Shown here piece after piece: positions 1,180-46,007 of a stretch of DNA of 64,000 bases (position 1 is its first letter; each line of letters begins with the position of its first letter). Under the pieces are notes generated by a model. It ran no database searches. It was given only the letters and a program-made list of their open reading frames with translations, and was not told the DNA's origin. Where the stretch lies: the IMG/VR virus record IMGVR_UViG_3300047408_000067, positions 26,616 to 90,615 of that record. One strand, 5' to 3'. This DNA is from a virus. The translations under genes were made by a program, and so were the position numbers.

Positions 1180-1563
1180 TTAGAATGGCTGGTCGTACTT
1201 CAGACGCTTTAGTATCTGGCGGTCACGCACCACACCAGCGATGGTGGTACGTAATGTACAGGTAGGAGAACACACCCTCAGCTTTCCGGCTTTCTTGTGC
1301 GCCGCAATCTTAGCCTTACCCGCTACCACTGACGTTGCAAGCTCTTGCGCTCTTGTGCGCATTAGCTCACTACGCATATACAGGGGGACGGCTTTGCTTG
1401 GCACACTACACTTTACCAGCCCAGGCTTCCCTTTGGCAAGGTGGGGCCTGAGCAATGAAGGTGGCTTACTCGCCGCGCTTACGAACGCATCGGCGGGTAT
1501 ATACTTGACAATCAAGATGATTGCCACAACTAACAGCAATCCGAGTTTGGCTTCTGTGTCCAC
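1180..1563 (-). CDS. Small N-terminally membrane-anchored hypothetical protein
   Basis: 127 aa. Residues 7-20 (LGLLLVVAIILIVKY) form one hydrophobic segment, followed by a basic region with three cysteines (one near residue 52 and two close together near residue 100). The start is GTG immediately after the TAG of the upstream gene, with GAAGA nearby as a weak SD. The pattern suggests a membrane anchor with a basic cytoplasmic or external domain. No family recognised. Confidence 0.6.
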   Translation of the reverse strand: MDTEAKLGLLLVVAIILIVKYIPADAFVSAASKPPSLLRPHLAKGKPGLVKCSVPSKAVPLYMRSELMRTRAQELATSVVAGKAKIAAHKKAGKLRVCSPTCTLRTTIAGVVRDRQILKRLKYDQPF

Positions 1564-2010
1564 CTATATCTTCTGCAGTTCTGCCTCCATTAGCTGGAGG
1601 ATACCTTCAGCTTCGTATTGGCCGTCGATGTGTCCAAAACTGCGCGTGCTCACCTCGGATAAGATACTCATCATACCAGTGGTTTCCGACCAGAAATGCG
1701 GCCGGTCCTGGTACTCGAGGAACGTGTCAAACGTCGGCCGCAACATTGTATCCACTGTTGCGTATAGCGTAACCACACACTCCACGGTATCTACTACCAA
1801 GTAGGTGTCGGGGCTATCCTTGCCCTGGTACACCTTCTCACTCGGCTTGCTACCTATATGCAAGCTAGACCTCCTATTTACTTGTTCAAGTGCGCTGCCC
1901 CCACTTGGGGCCAACAAAAACAGTATGCCACCAAAGTTATCCGTGCGGCAATCCCAGTGGAGCGTCAAAGACGAAGTTCGTTGGGAACGGCTCAAACCCA
2001 CCCTGCTCAT
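1564..2010 (-). CDS. Hypothetical protein
   Basis: About 148 aa from an ATG at 2010; an in-frame TTG lies at 2028. The first about 24 codons overlap the previous gene and look non-globular, so translation may begin further in; no start has a clear SD. The middle and C-terminal parts look like a real folded protein. No domain recognised. It directly abuts the next gene downstream (TAG-GTG). Confidence 0.55.
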   Translation of the reverse strand: MSRVGLSRSQRTSSLTLHWDCRTDNFGGILFLLAPSGGSALEQVNRRSSLHIGSKPSEKVYQGKDSPDTYLVVDTVECVVTLYATVDTMLRPTFDTFLEYQDRPHFWSETTGMMSILSEVSTRSFGHIDGQYEAEGILQLMEAELQKI

Positions 2011-2293
2011 TATACACCAAAATGACAAAGGGGTACCCCAGTCTTTGGCGTAGAGCCTGAACAGCTACCACGTTGAAGTAGGCATGTCCCGTTACCAGGA
2101 AGAATATCCTACTGGAAGGCCAGATCCTCTCCACGCTGGCACGTATCTCGGCGGTCACATCTAGTATGTAATCTCGCGTTAGTGGCCGCCGAGCTAGCAT
2201 GGATAATGGATAGAGAACTACCTGGTCCTTGAGCCACTCCTCAAGGACCGCCTTATCGTGGTGGTGTGGTGTTGCTGAGACTACCGTTAGCAC
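1937..2293 (-). CDS. Hypothetical alpha/beta (Rossmann-like) protein
   Basis: 118 aa from GTG at 2293, chosen because AGCAGG lies 6-7 bases before it; the longer frame back to TTG at 2368 reads through another small gene. Hydrophobic strands alternate with helices (VLTVVSATPHHHDK; IFFLVTGHAYFNVVAVQAL; FVILVYNEQGG), consistent with a Rossmann-like fold such as is seen in CARF or nucleotide-binding domains, but there is no diagnostic motif. It overlaps the 52-aa coiled-coil gene upstream and the hypothetical gene downstream. Confidence 0.55.
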   Translation of the reverse strand: MLTVVSATPHHHDKAVLEEWLKDQVVLYPLSMLARRPLTRDYILDVTAEIRASVERIWPSSRIFFLVTGHAYFNVVAVQALRQRLGYPFVILVYNEQGGFEPFPTNFVFDAPLGLPHG

Positions 2294-2411
2294 CACTGAC
2301 CTGCTGTTGGGTCCGTGCTTTCTCCAGCTTCGCTCGCGTACGGTTTGCCTTCGCCATCTGTCGGCCAAGTTTGATCTCCAGCTTCTCCAGCTTGGAGGTT
2401 TGGTCAGCCAC
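2253..2411 (-). CDS. 52-aa coiled-coil micro-protein
   Basis: Starts at GTG 2411, overlapping the TGA of the upstream gene, with AAGG 6-7 bases before it. The first 34 residues are charged with leucines at heptad-like spacing (KLEKLEIKLGRQM, RAKLEKART), typical of a short coiled coil; the tail is Ser/Thr/Asn-rich and ends TAA at 2253. Its 3' part overlaps the start of the next gene in another frame. Function unknown; such proteins are often dimerising adaptors. Supported by SD, stop/start overlap and composition rather than by homology. Confidence 0.6.
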   Translation of the reverse strand: MADQTSKLEKLEIKLGRQMAKANRTRAKLEKARTQQQVSGANGSLSNTTPPR

Positions 2412-2874
2412 GTTTCACCTTCTTACGCCGCACAGGCGCGACCTCTTCCTCTTCTTCCTCGTCGTCTTCCTCGACCTCGGCTACCTCTTCCTCCTCATCA
2501 TCGTCTGGCTCCTCCTCCTCACGCTTGGTAGCAAACAGCATGAGTACTTCGCCAAGCTCGTCATCATAGTCGGTGACAGCAGTTAGGTCATACCCGCGCA
2601 CCCGTAGGGGTTTGCGGACACCCTCGCGGATTTTGACCTTCTCGGTTTTGCTGGCGACAGGGATGACCACTGCTTTCTCGCCCAGCTCCAGCCTGATAAG
2701 CCTGCGCACCAGTTTCTCGTACTCTGGGTTGCGCGACCCAGGCGAGCGCCCCTTTGGCACGTCATCCCTGCGGATGGTGCGGGCAACGACAATCAAGCCG
2801 TTCTTGGGAGCAGCCTGCTCTGGCTCCTCATCGTCCTCTACAGGACGCCGTTTCTTCCTATGGGCTATGACCAC
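2404..2874 (-). CDS. Hypothetical protein with long acidic tail
   Basis: 156 aa from GTG at 2874, preceded by AAGGAG at 8 bases (a TTG at 2913 lies upstream without SD). A basic N-terminus (HRKKRRP) is followed by an alpha/beta-looking core (NGLIVVARTIRR; EKLVRRLIRLELGEKAVVIP; LGEVLMLFATK). The last 45 residues are almost pure Glu/Asp, ending in a basic VRRKKVKRG. The core could be a small DNA- or nucleotide-related domain, but I do not recognise it. A promoter lies upstream at 2913-2942. Confidence 0.65.
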   Translation of the reverse strand: MVIAHRKKRRPVEDDEEPEQAAPKNGLIVVARTIRRDDVPKGRSPGSRNPEYEKLVRRLIRLELGEKAVVIPVASKTEKVKIREGVRKPLRVRGYDLTAVTDYDDELGEVLMLFATKREEEEPDDDEEEEVAEVEEDDEEEEEEVAPVRRKKVKRG

Positions 2875-2912
2875 TTGGTTATCTCCTTGCTGGCACTTTT
2901 TGCCATAAGGCA

Positions 2913-2942
2913 ACTATACAGCAGCAGGCTTCCCATTTGCAA
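2913..2942 (-). promoter_or_regulatory. Sigma70-type promoter
   Basis: On the minus strand TTGCAA, 18-base spacer, TATAGT (2918-2913). It lies in the 88-base gap upstream of the acidic-tail gene at 2404-2874 and should drive 150-2874 to the left. It matches the consensus shared by the other promoters of this window (TTGSMR, N17-19, TAYAVT). Confidence 0.6.
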
Positions 2943-2962
2943 GTTGCAGTTTTGCAGTGGAG

Positions 2963-3220
2963 TTAGTAGTCTCTAGGGATCATGCCAGGAATCTCTTCAG
3001 GGTCCTGAGGGCGTTCACGAGCCAGTTCTATTGTGACGGCCCCATCCTTGCGGATGGTAGCAGCATTGCTCATCCTGGTCCACTTCGTGGTGAGCTTCGA
3101 GTACTCGTCTTCACTCACGTAACCGAATATACGTATCGCTTCGATTATAGACAGTACATCGTTCTCAGCACACGCCTGCTGGACCATCTTCAAGAACGGA
3201 GCTAAACGGTCTCTAGCCAT
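2963..3220 (-). CDS. Small hypothetical protein
   Basis: 85 aa, ATG start with AGG upstream; overlaps the end of the thymidylate-synthase-like gene by 19 bases, suggesting coupling. Mostly helical in the first 35 residues (LAPFLKMVQQACAEN, SIIEAIRIFGY), then a polar C-terminus. No family recognised. Confidence 0.6.
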   Translation of the reverse strand: MARDRLAPFLKMVQQACAENDVLSIIEAIRIFGYVSEDEYSKLTTKWTRMSNAATIRKDGAVTIELARERPQDPEEIPGMIPRDY

Positions 3221-4368
3221 TTACGTACCTGTTCATAGGGTACCCCGTAGGATGATAGTTCTAGATACGCTGCTTGAATCAGGTTCGAATACTTCTCTGG
3301 GTCTTTGTTCCAACGGTACTGACAGAAGTTACGCATCATCGGTGCCCTGAGCTCTGGATACTCAGGCAGACCTTCGAATGCTCTTTCGTCGTCGTGTTGC
3401 TTGAAGTCACGGTACGCCTGCAACGTTTGTATCACAGCCCGCCAGTACGGACCTATCACGTTCTCCAATCGTTTGAAGTCGTCGTGGTGGTACTCTATCT
3501 GTTCGCGGATGTTGCGCTCTGCCCTGGTTAGCTCAGTGGCAACTAGCGGACCAGTCTTCATCATTGGCGGTGTGGCTTCGAAATACTGGTACAAGTCAAA
3601 CGGCTTGACGTCTTCGCACTCTCGGTACTTTTCCCGATACACGTGGAAGCTGTCCTGCACTATGAACATATGTCCCATTGGCACATGCAATGACGCAGCC
3701 ACCCACTCCTGGACGTGGCTCCACTGCATAACGTTGTACGGTATCCCCCATACCGCATCGTTGCTACGAATGATTTGCATCCAGTCCAGCCTGCCTTCTC
3801 TTATCATGGCATGGGCATAGACGTTGCAAGCTCTGTCATTTGTCTGGGCCTGGTAGTTATCCCAATACGGGTGGCTGAGAACAATACTAGCCTGTCTGCT
3901 GTCGGGGTCTGCCACCAGGGTCTGGATTACATGCTCAAGCTGGTCTATTCCAGAATAATCAAGGCTCTTCCTAGCACCGTAGTCATAATGGCGCATTCTA
4001 TCCCCATACGCCGCATTGAAACCAACTACATCACGCTGCCAATGGGGTGTACCTCTTGGGCCATCACCCTGGATGTCGATGATGCTACTGTTGTAGAAGG
4101 CCAGCGCCTGAGCATCATTCTGCCCCGTGATAATATGCATCGCTTCAACAAGGGCAAACGGCAGATTGATCATTCGACCCATGCAGGTCGTAACACGCTT
4201 TCGTGGGTCCAATATAAGAGCCGTGGTGGGGTGTAGTTCCCTCGTCGTCTTACCCCTTGGAGAGGTCTCGGTACCTTTTGCCATGAGGGTCTTACAGATG
4301 TCGGCGTAGTAGTCGTTTACACCCACTGCCGAGAAGTGCCATGCCTGGGGAATATCAGTTATTGTCAT
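3202..4368 (-). CDS. Thymidylate synthase / pyrimidine hydroxymethylase family enzyme
   Basis: 388 aa, longer than ThyA (about 264). Family features visible: GFNAAYGDRMR (residues 117-126, cf. the YGxxWR region), ACN with candidate catalytic Cys181, IIRSNDAVWGIPYN (199-212, the RSxDxxLGxPFN block with Asn212) and DSFHVY (239-244, HxY). In the family, Cys attacks C6 of dUMP or dCMP and a folate C1 unit is added at C5. Retention of Asn212 favours a uracil substrate over cytosine, where Asp is usual. The canonical PCH around the cysteine is ACN here. The product could be dTMP or, as in phages with hypermodified thymine, 5-hydroxymethyl-dUMP; the modification cassette at 15151-19505 makes the second attractive. 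Own promoter at 4389. Confidence 0.85.
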   Translation of the reverse strand: MTITDIPQAWHFSAVGVNDYYADICKTLMAKGTETSPRGKTTRELHPTTALILDPRKRVTTCMGRMINLPFALVEAMHIITGQNDAQALAFYNSSIIDIQGDGPRGTPHWQRDVVGFNAAYGDRMRHYDYGARKSLDYSGIDQLEHVIQTLVADPDSRQASIVLSHPYWDNYQAQTNDRACNVYAHAMIREGRLDWMQIIRSNDAVWGIPYNVMQWSHVQEWVAASLHVPMGHMFIVQDSFHVYREKYRECEDVKPFDLYQYFEATPPMMKTGPLVATELTRAERNIREQIEYHHDDFKRLENVIGPYWRAVIQTLQAYRDFKQHDDERAFEGLPEYPELRAPMMRNFCQYRWNKDPEKYSNLIQAAYLELSSYGVPYEQVRKWLETV

Positions 4369-4384
4369 AGCTTTGTGTGCCTAC

Positions 4385-4840
4385 CTACATTGTAGCAGCT
4401 AAGACTTCTGTATGCCAAACAGGGAAGTACACGTTGGACTTATAGGTATGACCATACCTATTTGCTATCCGCATCTTGCCTTTCCGCAGCCTGCCCTGCT
4501 TGACCAGGTCTTCTAGCATTTGCCATAGACTGTTCTTGTTCTGGAACGTTGTGACCAGTACCAGCTCTTTTGCCGTAAACGGTCCTAAGACCATAGTGGC
4601 ATATTCGCAGCACTGCTGATACAAATCATCCAAGGATTTGTCGCGGCCAGATCTCCTCTCGTCAAAGGGTACTTTGCGTTGACAGTCATTGATAGTGCGG
4701 GCTATGTCGTAGCTCAGTGGTATCTGGAACGCGGGACAGTAGTAACCCTCGCCTCTTTCACGAAGCAGCTTACAGTCGAAGCAAGAGCTAATCCGCCAAG
4801 ACACCTGCCCACTCTCGTAGTTTTTGGTAGTCCTCTTCAT
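4385..4840 (-). CDS. Cysteine-containing winged-helix-like hypothetical protein
   Basis: 151 aa from ATG at 4840, overlapping the upstream nuclease-like gene by 53 bases; an internal GTG at 4804 is an alternative. The N-terminal half has four spaced cysteines (SCFDC, YYC, DC), a possible zinc site. Residues 87-125 (PFTAKELVLV; NSLWQMLEDLVKQGRLRKG) look like a helix-turn-helix plus wing. Possibly a DNA-binding regulator; no family named. Confidence 0.6.
   Translation of the reverse strand: MKRTTKNYESGQVSWRISSCFDCKLLRERGEGYYCPAFQIPLSYDIARTINDCQRKVPFDERRSGRDKSLDDLYQQCCEYATMVLGPFTAKELVLVTTFQNKNSLWQMLEDLVKQGRLRKGKMRIANRYGHTYKSNVYFPVWHTEVLAATM
4389..4418 (-). promoter_or_regulatory. Promoter of the thymidylate-synthase-family gene
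   Basis: On the minus strand TTGGCA, 18-base spacer, TACAAT (4394-4389). The ATG at 4368 lies 20 bases after the -10, giving a very short leader. The start overlaps the 3' end of the previous gene. Confidence 0.55.
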
Positions 4841-5171
4841 ACATGAAGATCCGCCAGTACAGATACTTACCCCTACGGCCTAATGTCCTGCGGTGGTACA
4901 CAGCACATATCGCGACGCTGTCAGGGAGCGTCACAACCGCCTTGATACCCCGCAGTATGGCACGCACACTACCGTAGCCCCCAAGCGAGTCGGTCCTCTT
5001 GATCTGGAACGCGTAGAGCTTGCGACCTATCCACACGTTGTCCAGAATCGACCTGCTCTGGCTGCTCCGTATCGCGACCAGGTGGTACGGGAGCTCCTCC
5101 CCTATCCTGCGTATCTCGTTCTCCTTGGTCTGGCCCCAGGCTTTTCTTGAGCCTTTTCTTGTCCACGCCAT
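4788..5171 (-). CDS. Candidate Hjc-like PD-(D/E)XK nuclease
   Basis: 127 aa, ATG with GGAG 8 bases upstream. The layout resembles archaeal Holliday-junction resolvases and related endonucleases: a basic N-terminus, KENEIRRIGEEL helix with Glu, then AIRSSQSRSILDNVW (Ser-rich turn with Asp) and LYAFQIKRT, where QxK would stand in for the usual ExK. These would supply the metal-binding D and the lysine. Family assignment is by pattern only. It would resolve branched recombination or replication intermediates, together with RecA and the SF2 helicase. Confidence 0.5.
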   Translation of the reverse strand: MAWTRKGSRKAWGQTKENEIRRIGEELPYHLVAIRSSQSRSILDNVWIGRKLYAFQIKRTDSLGGYGSVRAILRGIKAVVTLPDSVAICAVYHRRTLGRRGKYLYWRIFMYEEDYQKLREWAGVLAD

Positions 5172-11102: not shown

Positions 11103-14100
11103 CTACTTCGGTATCGGGTACTTCGCATCTTCGAACACAATGCTGTTCCTGTCAACTTGTCGCTTGCCATACACCAGAACGACTCGTCCTTTGAACAGAT
11201 TAGCGCCATGTTGTTCCCACCATTTCGGAAACACCACCACGTCCCAGGTACCCAACCCGTCGTATTTGACCTGGACGAAACCCATCTTGTAACCATTCTT
11301 CGTAGTGATTTCACGTACCCTATCCACTTGCCCGCCAACCCAACACCATTTATCCTGAGAGCTTGTTAGGGACTTCAGGTTCAAGGGCCTGCGAACCTTG
11401 CGGTCTAGAACAACGCGGTATTGATCTATGGGGTGGCTAGTCACATACGTACCCAAAAGTTCAAGCTCGGTTTGTCCTCGGTCTTCGTCTCCCTGTGTGC
11501 CAATGGTTTCAAAGGCACCTACTCTGCGTAATAGTTCAATGACGCGGACGTTGCATCTTCGTCGTGTTACTGTCCTCCTCAAATGTTCCTCGGAGGTGAA
11601 TGGCCTGTTCTCTACTAGCTCAGCGCAGGCTGTAACCCCTACACCCTTTATAGCAGTCAGGCCGTAGCGGATGCCACGTTTACCTTCCACGACAAATCCT
11701 GAACCTGACTTGTTTACGTCGGGTGGAAGGAAGCTAAGTCCAAAGAATAACTTCGCCTCGTCTATGTAGACAGGGTAGTCATCCTTATTGGCATAGCTCA
11801 GCAGGGTACAGAAAAACTGTGCTGGATAGTGTGTCTTGAGCCACGCTGTCTGGTACGCTAGTTTCGCGTATGCTGTCGCGTGGGCGCGGTTGAAGCCGTA
11901 CCCTCGGTAGTTCCATATCATGTCCCATATCTTTGTGGCTATTTCTAGGGTGCAACCGTTGTGCAATGCCCCTTGGGCTGCTCCCTTGGATTTGCCACTG
12001 AGCTTGTCGTAGAGTTCGCCCCCATTGAAGAACAGTGGCTTGAGTTCGTCCCATATGTCACCCTTCTTATACTTGATGGCCTCTTTCAGCTCGTCTACAA
12101 GGTGGTGATCGAATCCTCCGATTTGAAGTCCAATCTCCATGACTTGTTCCTGATATAGAACAACCCCCTGCGGTAAGATACGCCTGAGCCGTTTGTCTGG
12201 TAGCCTACGCCTGAGGTCTGTAGTTGCACCATCACGGCCTTCTCTATACTGCTCCACGAACTGGTTAGCACCACCGCGCCCGAGGGCCATGACAGCAATA
12301 AGGTCCTCAAAGCTCTGGAGTTGTAAATCTCGAACAACCTGCCTGGAAGTACCACCTTCAACCTGGAATACTCCCGAGCACGCACCTCTATTGAGAGTGG
12401 CCCAAACCGCTGGATCCTCGTACTCATACATCTCCGCAAATGGATCTTCCCCTATCAGATCAATGCAGTCTTGTATGACATCCAGTGTAGTCAGGCTCAG
12501 GATATCAAACTTCACCACACCTAGCCGCTTGAGACCGTCCATATCATACTGAGTCACTACAGCCGCTTGACCACGCCCCTGTCCACGCCCAACCATCATC
12601 GTTGGGACCAGTTTGCGTAGGTCGAACGCTTGGTCTGCAATAACTATGCCAGCAGCATGCTTGCCTTCGCCTGTGATGAGGTCCTGAGCTGTCGTAGCCC
12701 ACTCATAAAAGCTAGGGTAACTAACCATAGCCCCCTTTAGTACAGGGTGTAGATGCTCGTCTTGAAGCAGTTCCTTTAGGTCGCCACTAGCCTTCAGGTT
12801 GACGATGAGTGCTGCATCTGGCAGAGACTTACTTGCCGCAAATTGCTCGTTGCGCGGATACCCCAACGCCCCCAGGATGCGTTGTACTGTGCTCCGTGGG
12901 CCACCCCTGCCGAACGTACCTACTCGTTGGGATTGGTACGGTGCTTGATTATATCTGCTAAGTAGGTATTTGACGACTTCTTCGATCCTGCTGTGCGGGA
13001 AATCAACATCGAAGTCCGGGAGGCTTGGGCGCGCCGGATTGAGAGCACGCTCAAACATAAGATCATACCGCACAGGATCCACATCAACAATGCCCATAAG
13101 ATAGGCTGCGAGTACCCCCGCCATACTGCCACGGCCAGGGCCGACACGAATCCCACGAGACCTAGCCCAATCAATATAGTCGCGAACAATAAGAAACTCT
13201 TCTTCGAACGTACTGCCGAAGATGACGCCAAGCTCGTATTGTAGACGAGTCCGGTACGTCTCAATATCCTTTGCCAGCCCTCCACGTCTCTCCAGCACTC
13301 GCAACCTCTTTTCGCAGATTGCGCGCATATAGTCAGCAGACGATACTTCCGTATTCTCTCTTGGAGCAACTGGGATGTGCCAGCTTCTTTGCTCCAGTTC
13401 TGGGATACTGAGCTGTATATCGTCTGTGTACTCTCGTATAGTGCGCTGGCTAGCTGCCCATACTGCGGGTTGGTCTGCCCAGAGTGCTCGCATTTCAGAC
13501 GTTGTTTTGAGATGATATCCTGAGCCATCAAAGTGGAATCTGGTCGAATCCCTCCAAAGGGACATCGTCTGGCATGCCAGCCATATGTCGTGTACCGAAT
13601 GGTGCGATGCTTCAACGTAATGGCTGTCGTTGGTGATGACCAGTGGGAACCCGTACTTGTCGTGCCACCTGATAAGCCTGTTGTTGACCTTCTCCTGGTC
13701 ATCGTTAGCCCGCCTGTCGCCAGTGTTCTTCAGGTTATAGTCATGCCGCTGTAGCTCGAGATAGAAGTACGGGAACAGTTCCCTGAAATACTGAGCATAC
13801 TGGAGGGCCGTAGCGTTCTGGTTGGCTAGGATTAGCTGCGGTATTGGACCATTGAGACAAGTCGAGCTGGCGATAAGGTGTCGTCGGTCTTTCCGCGGTA
13901 TTGCTTCCAGCGTACTATAATCGACACGAGGCTTATAATAGAAGTGGCTAGGATCGTTCGCGGTACTGCTAAGTTCGCACAGTACCTCGTACCCTCGTCT
14001 GTCACGAGCAAGCAGTACCAGATGGTGCCGCCTAGGACCCTCTTTCTTGCCGGTCTCAGGATCAACTGTTCTGGTACGGTCAGTACAGTCATCGCAAAGA

Positions 14101-14306
14101 TAGAATTCCTGCCCCACAATAGGTCGAACGTCAGCCTTTCGGCACGCCTGGTAAAACTCAGGAACTCCAGACATGCGTCCATGATCTGTAATTGCGAGAG
14201 CTGACTGCCCATCATCTTTGGCTTTCTGGACCAGATCCGGTATGCGTGATAGCCCGTCTAGCACGCTATACTCTGTGTGGTTGTGTAGGTGAACGTATTT
14301 ACTCAT
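11103..14306 (-). CDS. dnaE: DNA polymerase III alpha subunit (C-family replicative polymerase)
   Basis: 1067 aa; the ATG at 14306 lies inside the upstream stop (ATGAGTAA) and starts with the family N-terminus SKYVHLHNHTEYS. PHP domain at 1-270 with HxH, TDHG, EF, RHH, a Cys in SSTCLNG, LQRHD and NDSH, i.e. apparently all metal ligands kept. Palm aspartates in LPDFDVDF (about residue 430) and the third in KFDILSLTTLD (about 600). A helix-hairpin-helix (LTAIKGVGV, about 880) and a C-terminal OB-like domain follow. It synthesises the phage genome; no separate epsilon or clamp gene is visible in this window. Confidence 0.95.
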   Translation of the reverse strand: MSKYVHLHNHTEYSVLDGLSRIPDLVQKAKDDGQSALAITDHGRMSGVPEFYQACRKADVRPIVGQEFYLCDDCTDRTRTVDPETGKKEGPRRHHLVLLARDRRGYEVLCELSSTANDPSHFYYKPRVDYSTLEAIPRKDRRHLIASSTCLNGPIPQLILANQNATALQYAQYFRELFPYFYLELQRHDYNLKNTGDRRANDDQEKVNNRLIRWHDKYGFPLVITNDSHYVEASHHSVHDIWLACQTMSLWRDSTRFHFDGSGYHLKTTSEMRALWADQPAVWAASQRTIREYTDDIQLSIPELEQRSWHIPVAPRENTEVSSADYMRAICEKRLRVLERRGGLAKDIETYRTRLQYELGVIFGSTFEEEFLIVRDYIDWARSRGIRVGPGRGSMAGVLAAYLMGIVDVDPVRYDLMFERALNPARPSLPDFDVDFPHSRIEEVVKYLLSRYNQAPYQSQRVGTFGRGGPRSTVQRILGALGYPRNEQFAASKSLPDAALIVNLKASGDLKELLQDEHLHPVLKGAMVSYPSFYEWATTAQDLITGEGKHAAGIVIADQAFDLRKLVPTMMVGRGQGRGQAAVVTQYDMDGLKRLGVVKFDILSLTTLDVIQDCIDLIGEDPFAEMYEYEDPAVWATLNRGACSGVFQVEGGTSRQVVRDLQLQSFEDLIAVMALGRGGANQFVEQYREGRDGATTDLRRRLPDKRLRRILPQGVVLYQEQVMEIGLQIGGFDHHLVDELKEAIKYKKGDIWDELKPLFFNGGELYDKLSGKSKGAAQGALHNGCTLEIATKIWDMIWNYRGYGFNRAHATAYAKLAYQTAWLKTHYPAQFFCTLLSYANKDDYPVYIDEAKLFFGLSFLPPDVNKSGSGFVVEGKRGIRYGLTAIKGVGVTACAELVENRPFTSEEHLRRTVTRRRCNVRVIELLRRVGAFETIGTQGDEDRGQTELELLGTYVTSHPIDQYRVVLDRKVRRPLNLKSLTSSQDKWCWVGGQVDRVREITTKNGYKMGFVQVKYDGLGTWDVVVFPKWWEQHGANLFKGRVVLVYGKRQVDRNSIVFEDAKYPIPK

Positions 14307-14691
14307 GGGGCCAAGACGCTGCTTCCTCTTGCGTAGCATCACGAGACGGTGCCTTGGTTGCTCTACTTTGGCTGCCGCCCATAGTATATTGTACCTTATC
14401 GCCACCTGCGGATGCACACCTGTACGCATGAGGCATCGGGACCTGCTCGTCCAAGAACATCCACGCACTGCACTCCACGCAGGCAGCAGATGGACGCACT
14501 AGATTCTGGTGGCTCACTGACTCAGTACCAATTTGCAGATACTGAAGGCAGTGGTTACACCAGATCTTACCCTTGGGGGCGTCTTCTCTTGGCTGGAGTA
14601 TACTTCCTGGGGTGTATCTTTCGTGCAGCAAGTAGCTCCCTGGCTTGTTCATTATCACTGGTAAGAAAGAGTCCTGTTGTGGGATCGACAT
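14299..14691 (-). CDS. Zinc-ribbon protein upstream of dnaE
   Basis: 130 aa from ATG 14691 (GAGGG close by); its stop overlaps the dnaE ATG. CNHC and CVEC about 25 residues apart form a four-Cys ribbon. The first about 40 codons overlap 14567-14767 in another frame. Function unknown; position suggests a replisome accessory. Confidence 0.55.
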   Translation of the reverse strand: MSIPQQDSFLPVIMNKPGSYLLHERYTPGSILQPREDAPKGKIWCNHCLQYLQIGTESVSHQNLVRPSAACVECSAWMFLDEQVPMPHAYRCASAGGDKVQYTMGGSQSRATKAPSRDATQEEAASWPHE

Positions 14692-14767
14692 AGCCCTCTA
14701 TTCCTCGCGCTTTTAGTTGCTGGTCAACGAACTCGGACGGTAACATCAAGCCATTGGGAGTAGGCAT
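14567..14767 (-). CDS. Small basic hypothetical protein
   Basis: 66 aa. The ATG at 14767 overlaps the upstream stop (TGATG) behind GGGGGTGG, so it is preferred to the long frame from 14857. Ends in a basic KYTPAKRRRPQG tail. Its last 125 bases overlap the start of the zinc-ribbon gene. No family recognised. Confidence 0.55.
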   Translation of the reverse strand: MPTPNGLMLPSEFVDQQLKARGIEGYVDPTTGLFLTSDNEQARELLAARKIHPRKYTPAKRRRPQG

Positions 14768-15126
14768 CACCACCCCCATCGCATAACGGTAACCCAAGCG
14801 TAGGTTCCGTAAGCTTTCTCTACGTTCTCTATGCCCCATGCGTAGCTTGGTGCCCACACATCTACTTGGTACTTGCTGAGATAACCAGTGTCTTCACACG
14901 TGACTACCCAATCGTCCTCTACGAATTTGAGCTGAGTACCAGCAGGAAAGTAGCTTCCGCAAGCCGCCGCACCGAGATGGGTTTGGTTGCCCCATCGCAT
15001 CGTGCCACGGACATTATAGAACGTCAGTCGGACGTGTTCCTGCCACAAGCCTTCGTCATCTGCATGCGCTATAGGCGTGACTGCGGATAACATGATAGCG
15101 AGCAGGGCTGCGCGCAAAACTGCCAT
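14767..15126 (-). CDS. Secreted 3D/RlpA-like double-psi barrel protein
   Basis: 119 aa. Residues 1-22 are a clear signal peptide (LRAALLAIMLSAVTPIAHA, cleavage near AHA-DD). The mature part has AAACGSYFPAGTQLKF, VVTCEDTGYL, VDVW and a C-terminal AYGTYAWVTV strand, in the order of the 3D domain found in MltA-type and resuscitation-factor-like wall proteins. Two cysteines could form a disulphide. Probably acts in or on the cell envelope, perhaps on peptidoglycan; catalysis not certain because only some of the three aspartates are clear. ATG is exactly 6 bases after a -10. Confidence 0.6.
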   Translation of the reverse strand: MAVLRAALLAIMLSAVTPIAHADDEGLWQEHVRLTFYNVRGTMRWGNQTHLGAAACGSYFPAGTQLKFVEDDWVVTCEDTGYLSKYQVDVWAPSYAWGIENVEKAYGTYAWVTVMRWGW

Positions 15127-15132
15127 GTAGGC

Positions 15133-15160
15133 AGTGTAACATTTCTGTAACTAGGATGCA
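15133..15160 (-). promoter_or_regulatory. Probable promoter for a leaderless mRNA
   Basis: Minus strand extended -10 TGTTACACT (TACACT at 15138-15133); the -35 is weak (CTGCAT at 17). The ATG at 15126 begins 7 bases after the -10, i.e. at the expected transcription start. Confidence 0.5.
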
Positions 15161-16077
15161 GGTGTGTACTTACGAGTAGCGGATCTACTAGGTGTGCCAT
15201 CCGGATTGGCATGGTATCTGGCACGAGAGTACTTCTGGAACTCACACAGGGAGTGTTCTACGCCGCGCAGGGTCATCTGGTATCCTGGCCAGACTTGATG
15301 CCATTCAACCAGTCTATCAATCCCCTCAATAAAGGTCTCCTGCCTAGCCTGTAGAAACGCGATATAATCTTCCCATTTGATTCCAGAGTTACGCGCACCC
15401 CAGATCCAGAGAATCCCACGCTTACACCCAGGTCCGGCGTTGACCCAATCATTCTCACTAAAGTCCACAAGTCTAGAATAGTTGACGTCAATGGCAAGCT
15501 CGTACGCCAAGAACCGCCCGAACCCTTGTGTGTCATTGAAGATCTGCCATACCTGTTTCAGCGACTTCGCAGACGTAATAGCCCGTAGTAGTGCTGGTGT
15601 TTGCTTTTGTAGCCTGCCCACTAGCCAGCAGATGTTCCTGATTTTGTCTGGAAAGCCACCAAACTTCACGCCAGTAACAGTAAAGGCATCCGTAAACACC
15701 CGACTGCCGTGATTCTCGTAGGCGTTTAGATATCTGGCTGCCCGCTCCCAATCCCAAGCTCCCCACCGTGTCATCTTGCAGCGCAACCACAGGAACCTGA
15801 AGGTATCAATGTCGTTGAACAGTCTGTACACCATGATGGCGAACAGCATGTCTTTGTCATCCTGTATCCGCAGTATGTTGCGGATGAGGAAGATGGTACC
15901 TTTGTCCAGTTCTCTGTAGACGTTGGTGAAGAAGTATTGCTTCAGTACAGGGTCGACAGTCCAAGGGGCTGGCATTTGGAGTTCCATGCGTCTGTAGTAG
16001 ATTGCTTGTCTTTCAACAACAAAGTTCCAGAACGCAGCCATCTTGTCTTGTCGGTAGGCAGGCAGTATGTTGGGCAT
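15151..16077 (-). CDS. Thymine pyrophosphorylase / 5-hmdU DNA kinase helical-domain family protein
   Basis: 308 aa. The N-terminus WNFVVERQAIYYRR, then APWTVDPVL (37-45), then FFTNVYRELD (49-58) is the signature of the alpha-glutamyl/putrescinyl thymine pyrophosphorylase clade (HMUDK_hel). Later blocks also fit: KFGGFPDKI, DTQGFGRFLAYELAID and NDWVNAGPGCKRGILWIWG, an HhH-glycosylase-like all-helical fold. In hypermodifying phages these enzymes act on hydroxymethyl- or pyrophosphoryl-thymine in DNA, either phosphorylating it or adding an amino-containing group. The P-loop kinase part found in some members is absent, so this is probably the transferase type. Last gene of the cassette; starts TAATG at the stop of the radical SAM gene. 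Confidence 0.75.
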   Translation of the reverse strand: MPNILPAYRQDKMAAFWNFVVERQAIYYRRMELQMPAPWTVDPVLKQYFFTNVYRELDKGTIFLIRNILRIQDDKDMLFAIMVYRLFNDIDTFRFLWLRCKMTRWGAWDWERAARYLNAYENHGSRVFTDAFTVTGVKFGGFPDKIRNICWLVGRLQKQTPALLRAITSAKSLKQVWQIFNDTQGFGRFLAYELAIDVNYSRLVDFSENDWVNAGPGCKRGILWIWGARNSGIKWEDYIAFLQARQETFIEGIDRLVEWHQVWPGYQMTLRGVEHSLCEFQKYSRARYHANPDGTPSRSATRKYTPAS

Positions 16078-17078
16078 TAGATGAATGCTAGATGGGACTT
16101 ATCGTCCGCAAGCTCCTCGTTCATGACGTCGTGGTAGACGTGGAATCTGCAGTCATAGAAGTCACATTCTGGAATGATAACTCGCTGCATGGCTGCGCGG
16201 TGTGATTCACTATACCAGAGATCGCGGAATCCATTACCTCCATTTGTGGAGAGTGCGCCAATGGAGATATCCTCAATACGGTCCTGATAGTAACAGCACA
16301 CCCACACTGTGCCGAGTGCGTCGATAACAGTGTGTAGCGGGGAAAGCCAACATTGTCCATTCTGATGAGTCTTAGCAATACCACCGAAGACTCTTCCAGG
16401 GTATCTAGCTCCAAGCTCCTGAATGGTATCTTGAATAGCCCGCTTGTCTTCCTCAGGTAGGAGTTCAGGATCGTCGTTGCAATGGCGCTTCGCCTTGATG
16501 CTAACGTAGTCAACTCCGGCATCTAGTATCTCCTCCGTGAGGTATTCGACTGCTGCCACACTGCTGCTACCAAGCAGGATTTTCCCACCAATCCTACAAC
16601 TAGAGTTCCTACTATCACGTTCCTGGACAATTCGTCGAACGTTGTCCAGTTGGTTGACAGTATAAACAGAGACCCGAATGTAGCGGCTTCCAGCATAAGC
16701 CAGAACATGAACACAAGCATCTGGGCGGGTTCCGTTCGTGATCATCCCGAATTGGAGATTATTGCTAGCGACGATATCAACAAGATCGCGAAACCTAGGG
16801 TGAAGAGTAGGTTCTCCACCTCCGGAAAACTCAAGGGACTCGCCGCCCATCTCGCTAAAATCACGAACGAAACTATCAAAGACGCTGACACCAAGGCTTG
16901 CAGGTCGTGCATTCTCAGCGTTAGAGATGCAGCCAAAACAGCGCATATTGCAACTGTACGTAGGATATACGATCGCCATTGTGGGGGCAACCATCTCATC
17001 GCGCTTGAGCTTGACCGCATCTTTGCGAAAGCTGAGTATCTTGGTGCGTAGATCTACTGGTGCGTATTGCGGAATCAC
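16077..17078 (-). CDS. Radical SAM/SPASM enzyme of the modification cassette
   Basis: 333 aa from GTG 17078, which overlaps the upstream stop as GTGA and has GGAGG 7-8 bases before it (an ATG at 17096 lacks this). CNMRCFGC (about 43-50) is the CxxxCxxC that binds the radical SAM 4Fe-4S cluster; SGGGEPTLHP is the SAM-binding GGE motif. The C-terminal part has CWLSP, WVCCYY, ECDFYDC cysteines like a SPASM domain holding one or more auxiliary clusters. Known members modify peptides, sugars or small molecules through a 5'-deoxyadenosyl radical. Beside a thymine-modifying enzyme and a glycosyltransferase, the likely substrate is a modified base or its donor, e.g. an isomerisation or C-C step. Confidence 0.8.
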   Translation of the reverse strand: MIPQYAPVDLRTKILSFRKDAVKLKRDEMVAPTMAIVYPTYSCNMRCFGCISNAENARPASLGVSVFDSFVRDFSEMGGESLEFSGGGEPTLHPRFRDLVDIVASNNLQFGMITNGTRPDACVHVLAYAGSRYIRVSVYTVNQLDNVRRIVQERDSRNSSCRIGGKILLGSSSVAAVEYLTEEILDAGVDYVSIKAKRHCNDDPELLPEEDKRAIQDTIQELGARYPGRVFGGIAKTHQNGQCWLSPLHTVIDALGTVWVCCYYQDRIEDISIGALSTNGGNGFRDLWYSESHRAAMQRVIIPECDFYDCRFHVYHDVMNEELADDKSHLAFI

Positions 17079-18538
17079 CCGAATGCCTCCAACCATGCCC
17101 TTGCCACGCCGCTAACAAACTTCATCCATCTCCCGTCTTGTGTAGGTTGAGAAGACAAGACTTGCAGCAGGGCTTCGCTACCCATAGCCGCAATTTCTGC
17201 CTGTGCCTCTTCCTCTAGTTCTTCTTCGTCTTCCTCTGGCTCAACGTCTGCCACTGCTAGTGCGGCGACTGGTATGTTTCGGGAAGTGAATACCTCTTGA
17301 CGCTCAACCATTTCGATTTCAGGAATGGGATCATCACAGACGTTATCCCAAAAGCTAGGGCTAACGACACCAGGGTGATGTCCATACTCCAGTCCGTTTT
17401 CAAGGTGGTCGAGTATCGTTGCCGCGTGTACCCTGGCATCACTGTACTCCCGCACAAACTCGATTGCTCTGTAGGCTATGCGCCGTTGAAGGCGTACATC
17501 TGCCATCAATTCGTTGAGTCTTTCGGCGATGCCTTGAGAAGAAGGTGGTAGTCCCCACGTAACGTCGACCTGGGACAGCGGACTCCACCTGTGTTCTTGT
17601 ACTCTTGTGGAGACGGCAGATACACAGCCATACAGCATGGCTTCGAGCATGACGCAGGACGTCTGGCCGTCGAACCTCTGTCCGCCAATAGAGCCGCTGA
17701 GATCCACGCTAACGTTATGCTGGCGATAAATACCAGGAAGTTCTGCTGGAAGCTGCGCCCCCCAATATTGGTGATCAGCTCGCCCACGGCCACGGCGCTG
17801 AGCAACGTGGTCAAGACCAATGCCATCTTTCCAACCCGCACCCACCTTGTTCCTGGCATTATGGTACTCGATGCCAGCGTTGTACAGATCAACAGGATAC
17901 TCAATGTTGGGTAGGGCCTTGATGAACGGATAGATACCTTTCCATTTCTTCCATTGCGGCATCCAGCAAATTGCGCCAGTTTTGTCTGGTAAGCACAAAC
18001 CCGCCTCTCTGGTATCTAGGGGGGTTGGCAGAAACACGAAGTGTCCGGGCAGCCTCGCCAGGGAGTCGTACTTGGATTGATAGCACGTAAACATGTGAAG
18101 GCTCACCAAGTCCGACACTTGACGATACCACGGGTAGTAGCTGTCCCACAGGTTGTCGTGAATCATCACCATGATTGGCAGGCCCGCGTCGGCTGCTTCC
18201 TGATACAGCATCATCCACGACATATCACCAGTGTTGGACTTGATATCATGTGGGCATGGCAGCATGAACATGACCACGTCGTAGTCGCGCAGTAGTTGAC
18301 GATACTGTCTCCTGGCCTCGTCTCCCTTGTAGGCCAGTTGCCTAGCGGGTAGCCTGTAGTACCTGTGGTTGACCATCGTAGGGGCGTCTGGACTAAGGCT
18401 GCGCACCTTACCTGCCCTGCTAGCCCAATAGTAGTCGAACGTGCAACCGATAGCCTCTAGACCATACTGCAACCCTTCGACTATGCGGTTTATCCCACCA
18501 CGCTCTATGATTTCAAAGTCAATTACCAGGAATCTCAT
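17075..18538 (-). CDS. GT-B glycosyltransferase (GT4-like) with acidic C-terminal extension
   Basis: 487 aa; ATG overlaps the upstream stop (ATGA). N-terminal Rossmann part starts MRFLVIDFEIIERGGINRIV, the GG-containing acceptor loop seen in GT4-type enzymes, then VMFMLPCPHD and MVMIHDN. The donor half has CWMPQWKKWKG, VDLSGSIGGQRFDGQTSCVMLEAMLYGC, where an E in the LEAM segment fits the nucleotide-sugar site. The tail from about 430 has an acidic stretch and a helical end. In this cassette the acceptor may be hydroxymethylated or hypermodified thymine; a surface glycan role cannot be excluded. Confidence 0.75.
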   Translation of the reverse strand: MRFLVIDFEIIERGGINRIVEGLQYGLEAIGCTFDYYWASRAGKVRSLSPDAPTMVNHRYYRLPARQLAYKGDEARRQYRQLLRDYDVVMFMLPCPHDIKSNTGDMSWMMLYQEAADAGLPIMVMIHDNLWDSYYPWYRQVSDLVSLHMFTCYQSKYDSLARLPGHFVFLPTPLDTREAGLCLPDKTGAICWMPQWKKWKGIYPFIKALPNIEYPVDLYNAGIEYHNARNKVGAGWKDGIGLDHVAQRRGRGRADHQYWGAQLPAELPGIYRQHNVSVDLSGSIGGQRFDGQTSCVMLEAMLYGCVSAVSTRVQEHRWSPLSQVDVTWGLPPSSQGIAERLNELMADVRLQRRIAYRAIEFVREYSDARVHAATILDHLENGLEYGHHPGVVSPSFWDNVCDDPIPEIEMVERQEVFTSRNIPVAALAVADVEPEEDEEELEEEAQAEIAAMGSEALLQVLSSQPTQDGRWMKFVSGVARAWLEAFG

Positions 18539-19080
18539 ACGGGTAGTTTATCACCTATTGGGGTCTGGTTCAAGGCGACTTCCTGCCGTATATCGATGTC
18601 CTGAACCTGGTACAGTAGATAGTCAGCAGCGGACTCGAGGCTGTCCAGCACTACAAGACTCATAGCCCGCCATGCCGCATAGTCTACGATCCCGCCCGTG
18701 AGATCCACAGTGATAACAGGTTTGCCCCAAGCATAAGCAACACCGATTTCGTGAGCAGAGTCAATTGACGTGTATCCTGGGTAGATGCAAGATAGCACAA
18801 AGTCACTATCGTGGATGAGACGTAGGTTGCGAGGAATGTAGAAGCCAGCTCTGCTGGTAGCCACCCCATCGCGATAAGCATTCGGGGCACGAGGATGAAG
18901 CCACAGTACACTACCAACGAGCCGATCGATATCCGCACGAGGGCGAGTATAATCCGGAGGGACTTTCTGCGCGGCCCATACGGCTCCAATGGTTTCACGT
19001 ACCAGATCCCTGTACAGCGTCTCTAACTGGTGTCGCCATCCAACCTGCATAGTGCCCGACGTGTATGGGCTGACTATCAC
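18535..19080 (-). CDS. Nucleoside 2-deoxyribosyltransferase / DNPH1-like N-glycosidase
   Basis: 181 aa from GTG 19080, in the ATGA/GTGA chain of the operon, behind AGGAG. MIVSPYTSG at the N-terminus, RLIHDSDFVLSCIYPG in the middle and SIDSAHEIGVAYAWGKPVI near residue 120 match the superfamily; Glu of HEIG is the expected nucleophile. The superfamily transfers or hydrolyses the N-glycosidic bond of deoxynucleosides or their monophosphates; members such as DNPH1 and MilB prefer 5-hydroxymethylated pyrimidine nucleotides. Inferred role: making, sanitising or recycling unusual pyrimidine nucleotides for the modification pathway. Confidence 0.65.
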   Translation of the reverse strand: MIVSPYTSGTMQVGWRHQLETLYRDLVRETIGAVWAAQKVPPDYTRPRADIDRLVGSVLWLHPRAPNAYRDGVATSRAGFYIPRNLRLIHDSDFVLSCIYPGYTSIDSAHEIGVAYAWGKPVITVDLTGGIVDYAAWRAMSLVVLDSLESAADYLLYQVQDIDIRQEVALNQTPIGDKLPV

Positions 19081-19505
19081 TCCTGCTTGTCCCTTCTATC
19101 GTCATCATCGTCGACGAAATTGAGACCAAACCACGCCAAGCACATCATGGTCCGGATAAGGACGTCGTAAAACGTGCCCGTCAGTTTGTCCTTATCCCAC
19201 TTCATGACAGCGCCACTTTCGCTAGCAGAATCAAGACGGTACAGCTTGTCTTTCAGGTCTACCAATGCCGTGATAGGCCCATCTTTCTGCCACGCGTCTT
19301 TGTACTGCTGGTTTTTCTGATACACCAGCGTGTCGTAATCTATCAGCGCCATTGCTAACTGTGAATTGATCTCGGTCAGCCACAGTTGTGACTCATAGCG
19401 CTCGTCCGTCGGGTCTAGCCCAAGGACGTGCTCTGCGAACTGGTCCAGTAGCCACCCTTGCTTGATGTCTACCCGTTGCATGTCTGCTGGTGTAACGATC
19501 TTCAC
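19077..19505 (-). CDS. DUF1599-like (nucleotide-modification-associated) protein
   Basis: 142 aa from GTG 19505, chosen because TGGAGG lies 6 bases upstream and because the longer frame (TTG 19526) runs into a terminator stem. DTLVYQKNQQYKDAW followed by LVDLKDKLYRLD and a helical end (YDVLIRTMMCLAW) resembles the all-helical DUF1599/Nmad1 domain found beside DNA-modification genes and related to MazG-like folds. First gene of the cassette. Tail DDDDDRRDKQE. Assignment is by pattern only. Confidence 0.5.
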   Translation of the reverse strand: MKIVTPADMQRVDIKQGWLLDQFAEHVLGLDPTDERYESQLWLTEINSQLAMALIDYDTLVYQKNQQYKDAWQKDGPITALVDLKDKLYRLDSASESGAVMKWDKDKLTGTFYDVLIRTMMCLAWFGLNFVDDDDDRRDKQE

Positions 19506-21012: not shown

Positions 21013-22026
21013 TCAGCGTCTGCTGCCGAGGGGGCGTTTCGCGCTGGACGCGGGACGGGTTGGCGCTTTGGTAGTCTTCCGCCGTGGAGCTTCTTCCTCT
21101 TCGTCTTCGTCCTCATCCTCGTCTTCATCACCATCCTCGTCCTCGTCCTCGTCGTCCTCCTCTACTACTGCTGCTGCTTTGCGCCCTCTTGCGGTGGCTG
21201 GCTTGCGAGCCGGGCGCTCTTCTTCTTCAGCTTCCTCATCTTCTTCTTCGTCTGATTCTTCCTCTTCGTCATCCTCGTCCTCGTCGGGTTCAACCCGACG
21301 GCTCTTGGTAGTGGTGGCCTTGCCCTTGGCTACCGTCTTACGTGGGGGAGCCTCCTCCTCGTCCTCGTCTTCCTCCTCCACGTCCTCCACGTCCTCATCA
21401 TCATCTTCGTCACCGATGCCCTCGGCGCGGGCCTTCATGGCGCGGCCACCACCGTAGTAGCTCTGAGCCTGTTGGTCGAGATAGCCTTCAATGTCGATCA
21501 GCTTGAGGTTGCGCTGGTCGAAGGCCTCTTTCTCCTCGGCTTCGATATGGTACTTGGTGTCGGTGCCTTCGCCGGTCCGAGTGATGCTGTAATCGCGGTC
21601 CATGATGGTGCCGCGTCGCTCGTACTTGATGATGAGGTTCTCGACCATTGCACCCGTGAGCTTGAGAAGCCGCACCTGCTTGCTATCGCGGTCCCACACG
21701 TTGACGTACCAACGCTTACCCGCACGGATGTCGCCGTCCAGGCGGCAGTTCTCGATGCACGGGACATACGCACCGTTCCCGCCTCCGCCCCCAGGGACAT
21801 AGTGCTCGCCGTACTCCACCCACGGATTGCGCTTGTTGAACGGCTCGTGCAGGAAGCGCACTGTTCGTGCTTCGCCTTCCTTGAACGTCAAGCGCACATT
21901 CGGCATCTGCTTTGCCGAGTCTCGCATGCTCTTGGCATCTTCGTGTGCCACGGTACGCACCTTGATGGTCTTGGGTGCGTCAACTTCGCTCTTGCCGTTA
22001 CGGGCAAACGTGCTTTTTACTGCCAT
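21013..22026 (-). CDS. Single-stranded DNA-binding protein with long acidic/basic tail
   Basis: 337 aa from ATG 22026 with GAGGA 5 bases upstream; an in-frame ATG at 22131, 6 bases after a -10, would add 35 residues from a leaderless mRNA. The core (about 35-180) has VRLTFKEGEARTVRFLHEP, WVEYGEHYVPGG, a Cys pair (PCIENC) and RWYVNVWDRDSKQVRLLKL, the layout of phage gp32/SSB-like OB-fold proteins. From about 195 on the chain is Asp/Glu-rich with interspersed Arg/Lys-Pro-Ala blocks, far longer than a normal SSB acidic tip. It would coat ssDNA and recruit partners through the tail. Confidence 0.7.
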   Translation of the reverse strand: MAVKSTFARNGKSEVDAPKTIKVRTVAHEDAKSMRDSAKQMPNVRLTFKEGEARTVRFLHEPFNKRNPWVEYGEHYVPGGGGGNGAYVPCIENCRLDGDIRAGKRWYVNVWDRDSKQVRLLKLTGAMVENLIIKYERRGTIMDRDYSITRTGEGTDTKYHIEAEEKEAFDQRNLKLIDIEGYLDQQAQSYYGGGRAMKARAEGIGDEDDDEDVEDVEEEDEDEEEAPPRKTVAKGKATTTKSRRVEPDEDEDDEEEESDEEEDEEAEEEERPARKPATARGRKAAAVVEEDDEDEDEDGDEDEDEDEDEEEEAPRRKTTKAPTRPASSAKRPLGSRR

Positions 22027-27732: not shown

Positions 27733-28176
27733 GTGGCAAAGAAAAGTACGACAGCGACCGCTAATCGCAAGGTGGCGGTTGCAGAGGAAGAGGACGACGA
27801 GGAAGAGGAAGTAGTAGTAGTCTCGGCAAAGAAGAAGACTGCTGCTCCCGTAGCCAAGTCGGCCACCAATGGCAAGGCGACCACCAAGGCCGCTGTCACT
27901 AAGAAGGCCGCCAAGAGCAACGATGAAGAGGGTGCTTACGCCCCCAATGCCAACAGTATGCGTGATTTCATCATGCGTTCTATGAGGCGGGGCGGCACGT
28001 CTACTGAAATCAAAAAGCGTGCGGCACGGTTTGCTGAGAAGAAGGGCGTGGACGAGCTGTCCGACATCAAGGCGTACAAGAACTTTGACGTCGCGTTCTT
28101 CGCCAAGTTTCTCGAGACCAAGGGCTTCGACGTGAGGATCGACGAGGAAGCGGACAGCTATCTACTTACCACCTGA
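27733..28176 (+). CDS. Histone-H1/acidic-patch protein with C-terminal domain
   Basis: 147 aa from GTG 27733, 8 bases after AGGAG. Residues 1-75 alternate Lys/Ala/Thr stretches with an acidic block (EEEDDEEEE); residues 80-147 look globular (NSMRDFIMRSMRRGGTSTE, VDELSDIKAYKNFDVAFFA). The basic/acidic interleaving resembles the proteins at 150-1163 and the SSB tail. Possible DNA-associated or DNA-mimic protein; function unproven. Confidence 0.6.
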   Translation: MAKKSTTATANRKVAVAEEEDDEEEEVVVVSAKKKTAAPVAKSATNGKATTKAAVTKKAAKSNDEEGAYAPNANSMRDFIMRSMRRGGTSTEIKKRAARFAEKKGVDELSDIKAYKNFDVAFFAKFLETKGFDVRIDEEADSYLLTT

Positions 28177-36663: not shown

Positions 36664-36667
36664 TAGA

Positions 36668-36952
36668 CTACCAGAGTCCTACCAAGCGATTGATGAACGT
36701 CATGTCCACAGCTTCGAGTGCTGTATGTAGCCCGTTGATGGCAGACTTGATCAGTGTCTCATCATCAGGCGACATATTGTATGGTTCGGCTTTGAGATCA
36801 ATACCCGCCAAACCATCGTAGTCATGGGTGATCATCTCCTTGATATCGATAAAACTACGCAGGTGAGTACCGATTGCGTAGTTGACATCATATGAACTAC
36901 CAGGAGCTAACCCTGGTGTCGTCTTGCCGTAGATTGGCGGAGGTATGGTCAT
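36668..36952 (-). CDS. Small fibre-linked protein, related to 46008-46304
   Basis: 94 aa, ATG with GGAAG upstream. AEPYNMSPDDETLIKSAINGL matches DPPFNYTPEDVAILKSGMSDL in the protein at 46008-46304, so the two are paralogues placed in front of different fibre blocks. Helical C-terminus. Possibly a fibre-assembly or attachment factor. Confidence 0.6.
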   Translation of the reverse strand: MTIPPPIYGKTTPGLAPGSSYDVNYAIGTHLRSFIDIKEMITHDYDGLAGIDLKAEPYNMSPDDETLIKSAINGLHTALEAVDMTFINRLVGLW

Positions 36953-36961
36953 TGATCTTCC

Positions 36962-46002: not shown

Positions 46003-46007
46003 GAGAC

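Follow-up and report, generated by a model that had tools for sequence, protein, structure and literature searches.

By what chemistry might a phage modify thymine in its DNA if it encodes the helical domain of a 5-hydroxymethyldeoxyuridine (5-hmdU) DNA kinase as a separate protein, next to a glycosyltransferase and a radical SAM enzyme? The question is raised by a cassette of five genes on the minus strand (15151-19505) of a 64,000-nucleotide stretch of phage DNA, which was analysed as a whole and is called the window below; it comprises bases 26,616-90,615 of a 90,615-base (90.6 kb) phage record (IMGVR_UViG_3300047408_000067). In order of transcription the cassette encodes a DUF1599-like protein, an NDT-like protein, a glycosyltransferase (GT), a radical SAM/SPASM enzyme and a stand-alone HMUDK_hel protein (hereafter HEL). 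All five genes were present where a first-pass annotation of the window had placed them, with head-to-tail overlaps of 1, 4, 4 and 4 bases. Together with a hydroxymethylase encoded elsewhere in the window (3202-4368, minus strand), the cassette probably decorates thymine positions of the phage's own DNA with a sugar that is edited enzymatically. The pathway favoured here, to which a probability of about 60% is given, is a kinase-free thymine hypermodification system, in which 5-hmdU in DNA is presented by HEL, glycosylated directly and edited by the radical SAM enzyme.

The hydroxymethylase and the conserved cassette

The enzyme at 3202-4368 (388 aa) was placed in the thymidylate synthase (TS) family by matches to PF00303 (1e-21) and phrog_5131; an orthologue with 62-63% identity is encoded by a 90.2 kb relative of the phage (G001). 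The protein was aligned with SPO1 gp29 (annotated as a deoxyuridine monophosphate (dUMP) hydroxymethylase), YuA gp17 and T4 gp42 (a deoxycytidine monophosphate (dCMP) hydroxymethylase). It carries the catalytic Cys followed by Asn, an RSND motif, and Asn in place of Asp, as do SPO1 gp29 and YuA gp17. T4 gp42 needs Asp179 for its cytosine specificity (PMC6400193). Because Asn stands where dCMP enzymes carry Asp, the enzyme at 3202-4368 most likely makes 5-hmdU monophosphate (5-hmdUMP) from dUMP. The route from dUMP to 5-hmdU drawn in the first-pass annotation is supported by the residue signature and the closest relatives of this enzyme, and the thymine-directed DNA modification proposed there is likewise supported.

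A cytosine derivative was considered as the modified base, with 5-hydroxymethyl-dCMP as the precursor and the GT glycosylating 5-hydroxymethylcytosine (5-hmC) as in T-even phages. In the PDB the hydroxymethylase best matches MilA, a CMP 5-hydroxymethylase; the TET-associated glycosyltransferase (TAGT) has been described in phages with 5-hmC (PMC13390438), and one related gene set (L112, below) contains a dCMP-type enzyme. A cytosine target is nevertheless very improbable, since Asn replaces the Asp that T4 gp42 needs and the enzyme is closer to SPO1 gp29 and to the enzymes encoded beside HEL in M6-like phages.

The order of the cassette genes is kept in contigs of related phages, from about 80% identity down to the distant L012. 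In close relatives HEL is 80-84% and the radical SAM enzyme 76-80% identical; in L012 the values are 61% for the radical SAM enzyme, 55% for the GT, 50% for the DUF1599-like protein, 37% for HEL and 33% for the NDT-like protein. By these comparisons the cassette is a conserved unit.

Kinase search and the two regimes of HEL systems

When the record was aligned gene by gene with G001, which has a different map start, the ends of each record were found to fall together inside the other. Because of this circular permutation both records are judged near complete, and gene absences are therefore meaningful. 5-hmdU DNA kinases were searched for with three models (A4, from our own alignment of 12 sequences, PF18748 and PF18747) and the amino-acid:DNA transferase (ADDT) with PF18724. 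No kinase was detected by any of the three in the whole record, in G001, in L012 or in the complete genome of phage LuckyBarnes, and positive controls were recovered (YuA, Ab18 and Sonora with A4; YuA, Sonora, Goe26 and Bue1 with PF18748; Bue1 with PF18747). ADDT was found neither in the whole record nor in G001, again with positive controls found; HMUD2 was absent from this genome and its 90 kb relative, and a Walker A scan returned helicase-type and spurious matches only. The first-pass annotation had advised looking for a 5-hmdU kinase outside the window; the search of the whole record, which returned none, rules out a kinase lying there. It had also included an activation of the base, adding that a kinase and a pyridoxal phosphate (PLP) enzyme might lie outside the window or that the chemistry might differ. 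As neither a 5-hmdU kinase nor an ADDT gene is present, the chemistry differs and the activation step drops out; the kinase is settled in the negative for the whole near-complete genome, and a PLP enzyme was not seen among the scanned proteins, no PLP model having been run genome-wide.

HEL systems were surveyed in 47 HEL records, independent at 60% HEL identity and with the phage's own clade left out. Each record was searched whole, a GT was scored by TAGT or by the window's GT model, and the kinase was scored as absent in G019, where the match was very weak (E 2e-5 over 23 residues). The survey comprised 31 kinase-free and 16 kinase-bearing records. A GT was present in 22/31 kinase-free vs 1/16 kinase-bearing records (p 2.8e-5) and ADDT in 0/31 vs 11/16 (p 2.5e-7), with p values that ignore relatedness; GT and ADDT were found together in 0/47. 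In Pfam tallies, HEL without a kinase nearby had the TS family, TAGT, GT1 and radical SAM as neighbours, and HEL with one had HMUDK_HMUD1, ADDT and radical SAM. A tree of 45 HEL proteins shows 12 changes of kinase state; GT opposed kinase in about 7 of 11 independent contrasts (vs 0.5 the other way; median sign-test p 0.04, range 0.008-0.125), a result that is supportive, not overwhelming. HEL systems fall into two regimes, with and without kinase.

These counts bear on the canonical amino-acid hypermodification of the M6/ViI type. In M6, ViI and phiW-14, 5-hmdU in DNA is phosphorylated by the 5-hmdU DNA kinase and then substituted (PMC6449724), and kinase/ADDT loci also contain HEL and radical SAM enzymes; the window phage could follow the same route if its kinase and transferase came from the host, or were too divergent to be recognised or otherwise missed, and the GT would then serve for a late decoration. 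Given two near-complete genomes in which the kinase and ADDT models found nothing while recovering their controls, and the lack, among the 47 HEL records, of any that combines GT with ADDT, this route is quite improbable for the window phage.

To avoid picking loci by HEL, further loci were collected with GT-family and radical SAM-family profiles as seeds; these profiles were built on genes first noticed beside HEL, so that the sampling is less biased, not unbiased, and the loci from the radical SAM seed belong mostly to the L065/L056 subfamily, not to that of the window. GT-seeded loci had a hydroxymethylase within 6 kb in 20/20 cases, HEL in 16/20, and kinase and ADDT in 0 each. In three of the four loci lacking HEL the contig is about 5 kb long and starts with the GT or close to it; in the fourth (L132) HEL lies just upstream on the same contig, in stretch L101. 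The 80 radical-SAM-seeded loci contained a hydroxymethylase in 67 cases, HEL in 65, TAGT in 69, a kinase in 1 and ADDT in 0 (for the 36 clusters at 70% identity: 30, 31, 28, 1 and 0, respectively), and the order HEL-TAGT-radical SAM-TS was seen in 45 loci. The base-specificity motif, readable in 85/87 seeded loci, had Asn in 85/85. Beyond the window's clade, GT, SPASM radical SAM enzyme and HEL occur together without kinase in L065 and L099 with a window-type GT (gene order in L099: HEL-GT-radical SAM-TS) and in L079 and L112 with TAGT. Judged by gene content, the window cassette is one divergent version of a recurrent kinase-free set and not unique to this phage. Chance synteny was rejected, since lineages that are not related carry the set and seeding from two other genes recovered it too.

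The recurrence also bears on whether the GT and the radical SAM enzyme might act elsewhere, on a host surface glycan, a small molecule or a peptide, with only HEL and the hydroxymethylase concerned with DNA. Both the GT-B and the radical SAM/SPASM families have many non-DNA substrates, and the NCBIfam radical SAM matches of the window's enzyme, all below cut-off, were best for maturases and for sugar or cofactor enzymes. A substrate other than DNA is given little chance here, considering that the genes overlap within one operon, that two further seeds returned GT, radical SAM enzyme, HEL and hydroxymethylase as a set in unrelated phages, and that two different GT families fill the same slot.

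Cultured phages were covered by tblastn of the radical SAM, GT, NDT and DUF1599 proteins against 50,697 phage records, which gave no match; neither did the related radical SAM enzyme L153 and the GT-B enzyme L133 in the same 50,697 records. On these searches, key cassette genes are not found in any cultured phage searched, and the kinase-free toolkit is present in many uncultured phages.

HEL, glycosyltransferase and radical SAM enzyme

HEL (15151-16077, minus strand; 308 aa) is full length and covers nearly the whole PF18723 profile (E 7e-68), as was found in the profile search for the HMUDK_hel family that had been suggested for this gene. Its AlphaFold2 model (pLDDT 89.3) matched the helical part of the SP10 5-hmdU DNA kinase with a TM score of 0.75. 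The nearest solved folds in Foldseek were PUGT, the 5-PmdU glycinyltransferase of phage PaMx11 (8z2n, prob 0.97), and helix-hairpin-helix 8-oxoguanine glycosylases, enzymes whose substrate is a base in DNA (prob 0.84-0.89); as the E-values were only about 0.2-0.5, this modelled likeness is taken as a lead only. A PDB sequence search with the HEL profile gave no match, and an NCBIfam search gave none for the HEL, GT, NDT or DUF1599 proteins. PF18724 (ADDT) scored HEL at 14.5 bits vs a cut-off of 26.2, which is read as distant kinship to ADDT. We propose that HEL is a base-flipping or presentation module for 5-hmdU in DNA. The findings bear on the role of the helical domain of the '5-hmdU DNA kinase', because the domain persists with invariant residues where the kinase is absent. 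Directly downstream of HEL lies a gene for a small protein with an apparent signal peptide (14767-15126, minus strand), 45-85% conserved in relatives and without a match in a Pfam search.

The GT (17075-18538, minus strand; 487 aa) was classified through its homologues. In hhalign its profile matched GT family A8 (prob 99.8, E 9e-29), which comprises 12 GTs encoded next to HEL in other phages, and members of A8 pass PF00534; its own sequence is recognised only weakly, but through these homologues it is clearly GT-B-like (GT4-like). A PDB sequence search with A8 gave no match, and the TAGT profile (PF20691) had no match in this genome (G000), in G001 or in G002. The GT is proposed to glycosylate 5-hmdU in DNA.

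The radical SAM/SPASM enzyme (16077-17078, minus strand; 333 aa; a second in-frame ATG at 17096) scored 47.4 bits with PF04055 (cut-off 29.5; 3e-12) and a borderline 21.6 bits with PF13186, the SPASM domain (cut-off 21.5); both families also exceed their cut-offs in G001 and G002. The CxxxCxxC motif is at CNMRCFGC, with cysteines invariant in relatives. Top PDB matches to Pizza6 designed repeat proteins were discarded as an artefact of a repeated short match. A search of some 85,000 genomes of bacteria and archaea found no relative of the family, and the window's enzyme belongs to its own subfamily, shared with L112. Since some SPASM/twitch-type enzymes act on aminoglycosides and sugars, we infer that this one edits the attached sugar. 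In L112 a radical SAM enzyme of the window's subfamily is kept with HEL and TAGT beside a dCMP-type hydroxymethylase (1228-4999 of that locus, with Asp and Cys-Thr), so that what these systems have in common is the sugar, not the base.

A different order of reactions was also weighed. The radical SAM enzyme would come first, with 5-hmdU or the not yet transferred sugar nucleotide as its substrate, and the group remodelled in this way would be glycosylated by the GT, glycosylated plain 5-hmdU being no intermediate. Kinase-type thymidine systems do hold radical SAM enzymes without a GT, and the order of reactions cannot be read from gene order. Many HEL and GT sets, such as those of LuckyBarnes and L062, have no radical SAM enzyme, so that a GT can do without one, and the same subfamily stands beside a dCMP-type hydroxymethylase in L112; action of the radical SAM enzyme ahead of the GT is rather unlikely.

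The two remaining cassette proteins are linked to the nucleotide pool by their families only. The NDT/DNPH1-superfamily protein (18535-19080, minus strand; 181 aa) matched PF05014 below cut-off (E 2e-4; 21.8 bits vs 28.8), its homologues matching PF15891 in L012 (7e-7; 30.0 bits vs 30) and PF05014 in L010 (4e-6); it carries a conserved AHEIGVAYAWGKP and a conserved Glu and is proposed to be a nucleotide-pool N-glycosidase. The DUF1599-like protein (nucleotide modification associated domain 1; 19077-19505, minus strand; 142 aa) had no direct match in a Pfam search, and its profile matched L063 at 7e-32, which in turn is a PF07659 protein at 9e-12 (45.6 bits vs 25). Both family calls are weak on the proteins' own sequences and firm or plausible via relatives.

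In the preferred, kinase-free pathway the enzyme at 3202-4368 would convert dUMP to 5-hmdUMP, as its residues suggest, and this would replace thymidine partly or fully in the DNA. A candidate for incorporation of the triphosphate (5-hmdUTP) is the product of 11103-14339 (minus strand), which on visual inspection resembles a DNA polymerase III alpha-type subunit and is 85-90% identical in close relatives. After replication HEL, whose domain goes with the 5-hmdU DNA kinase in other phages, would bind and flip 5-hmdU in DNA, the presumed acceptor, and present its hydroxymethyl group to the GT, which would attach a sugar directly, without a phosphorylated intermediate. The radical SAM/SPASM enzyme would then edit the sugar or, less likely, the base, and the NDT and DUF1599 proteins would probably trim the nucleotide pool. 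The product would presumably protect the DNA from restriction. The glycosylation and the radical SAM step, both drawn in the first-pass annotation, are supported and kept in this scheme. A more far-reaching version is put forward tentatively: the bases would be glycosyl-5-hydroxymethyluracil with a sugar rebuilt by the radical SAM enzyme, made without kinase, with HMUDK_hel as an exchangeable adaptor for either the kinase/ADDT or the GT route, in a widespread uncultivated branch.

Several points weigh against the pathway. The window's GT scored only 12.7 bits in Pfam against a cut-off of 25, and its AlphaFold2 model was poor (pLDDT 42) and unusable for a fold search. The sugar as substrate of the radical SAM enzyme is assigned by inference, and the chemistry of every member of the proposed system is putative. 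Nine of the 31 kinase-free HEL records had no GT by the two models, which means that a GT is not obligatory in kinase-free sets or that other GT families exist. One survey record (L047, on the 57.7 kb record G006) holds kinase, TAGT and SPASM with HEL, the only one to do so, and is possibly a mixed pathway. HEL is also not strictly linked to uracil, given its company in L112; from that gene set it may also serve 5-hmC.

Elsewhere in the window, three proteins (150-1163, 21013-22026 and 27733-28176) have long Asp/Glu runs alternating with Lys/Ala-rich stretches and are partly conserved in the 90.2 kb relative. A block at 34883-46304, probably of tail or receptor-binding genes, is strongly diverged or unmatched in G001, and its flanks are mostly 60-90% identical.

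Comparison with known systems

With M6, ViI and phiW-14 the window phage shares a dUMP hydroxymethylase, an HMUDK_hel protein and the thymine target, and with some members a radical SAM enzyme; it differs by lacking kinase and ADDT and by having a GT instead. In the cultured Brevibacterium phage LuckyBarnes (L015, NC_047851, 2822-6837) the operon TS-TAGT-TAGT-HEL, in which HEL is annotated as hypothetical, likewise combines HEL, a hydroxymethylase and glycosyltransferases without kinase and ADDT, but with TAGT in place of the GT-B enzyme and without a SPASM radical SAM enzyme. In pelagiphages, co-location of TS, aGPT-PPlase1 and a beta-glucosyl-HMC-alpha-glucosyltransferase (TAGT-type) was noted in 2022 (PMC9599517); there, too, a GT stands beside a TS-family enzyme and the wider protein family of HEL, whereas in the passages on these gene sets no radical SAM enzyme is described and the kinase is mentioned neither as present nor as absent. 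Association of a GT with the wider gene family of HEL is therefore not wholly new. Glycosylated thymine derivatives as such also have precedent, in the glucosylated dihydroxypentyluracil of SP-15 DNA (PMC5977210) and in YerA41, whose large T modification was proposed to be an oligosaccharide (PMC9023294). No earlier description was found of the split between kinase and GT systems, of the radical SAM component or of the GT-B variant, prior mention in the key kinase-route papers not being excluded. A gene rule would follow that separates the glycosyl route from the amino-acid route, namely HEL and GT without kinase or ADDT, and glycosylated 5-hmdU, or a version of it edited by a radical SAM enzyme, is predicted for many lineages of phages that have not been cultivated.

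Glucosylation of 5-hmC in T-even phages (alpha-GT, beta-GT, TAGT) resembles the proposed pathway in that hydroxymethylation by a TS-family enzyme would be followed by a GT acting on DNA; here, however, the hydroxymethylase is of the dUMP and not the dCMP type, HEL and a radical SAM enzyme are present, and the GT is of another family, without TAGT. In the formation of base J, thymine in DNA is oxidised by JBP dioxygenases and then modified by a glucosyltransferase (PMC6449724). The proposed product here would be a glycosyl-5-hydroxymethyluracil as well, whereas the hydroxymethyl group would already be installed on the mononucleotide, and the gene set includes a radical SAM enzyme besides; no TET/JBP dioxygenase was seen among the proteins scanned, no dedicated whole-genome search having been made. 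If the proposal is true, such phages would be a source of tools, namely glycosyltransferases that modify DNA and radical SAM enzymes that act on it, and their modified base would be a bacteriophage counterpart of base J.

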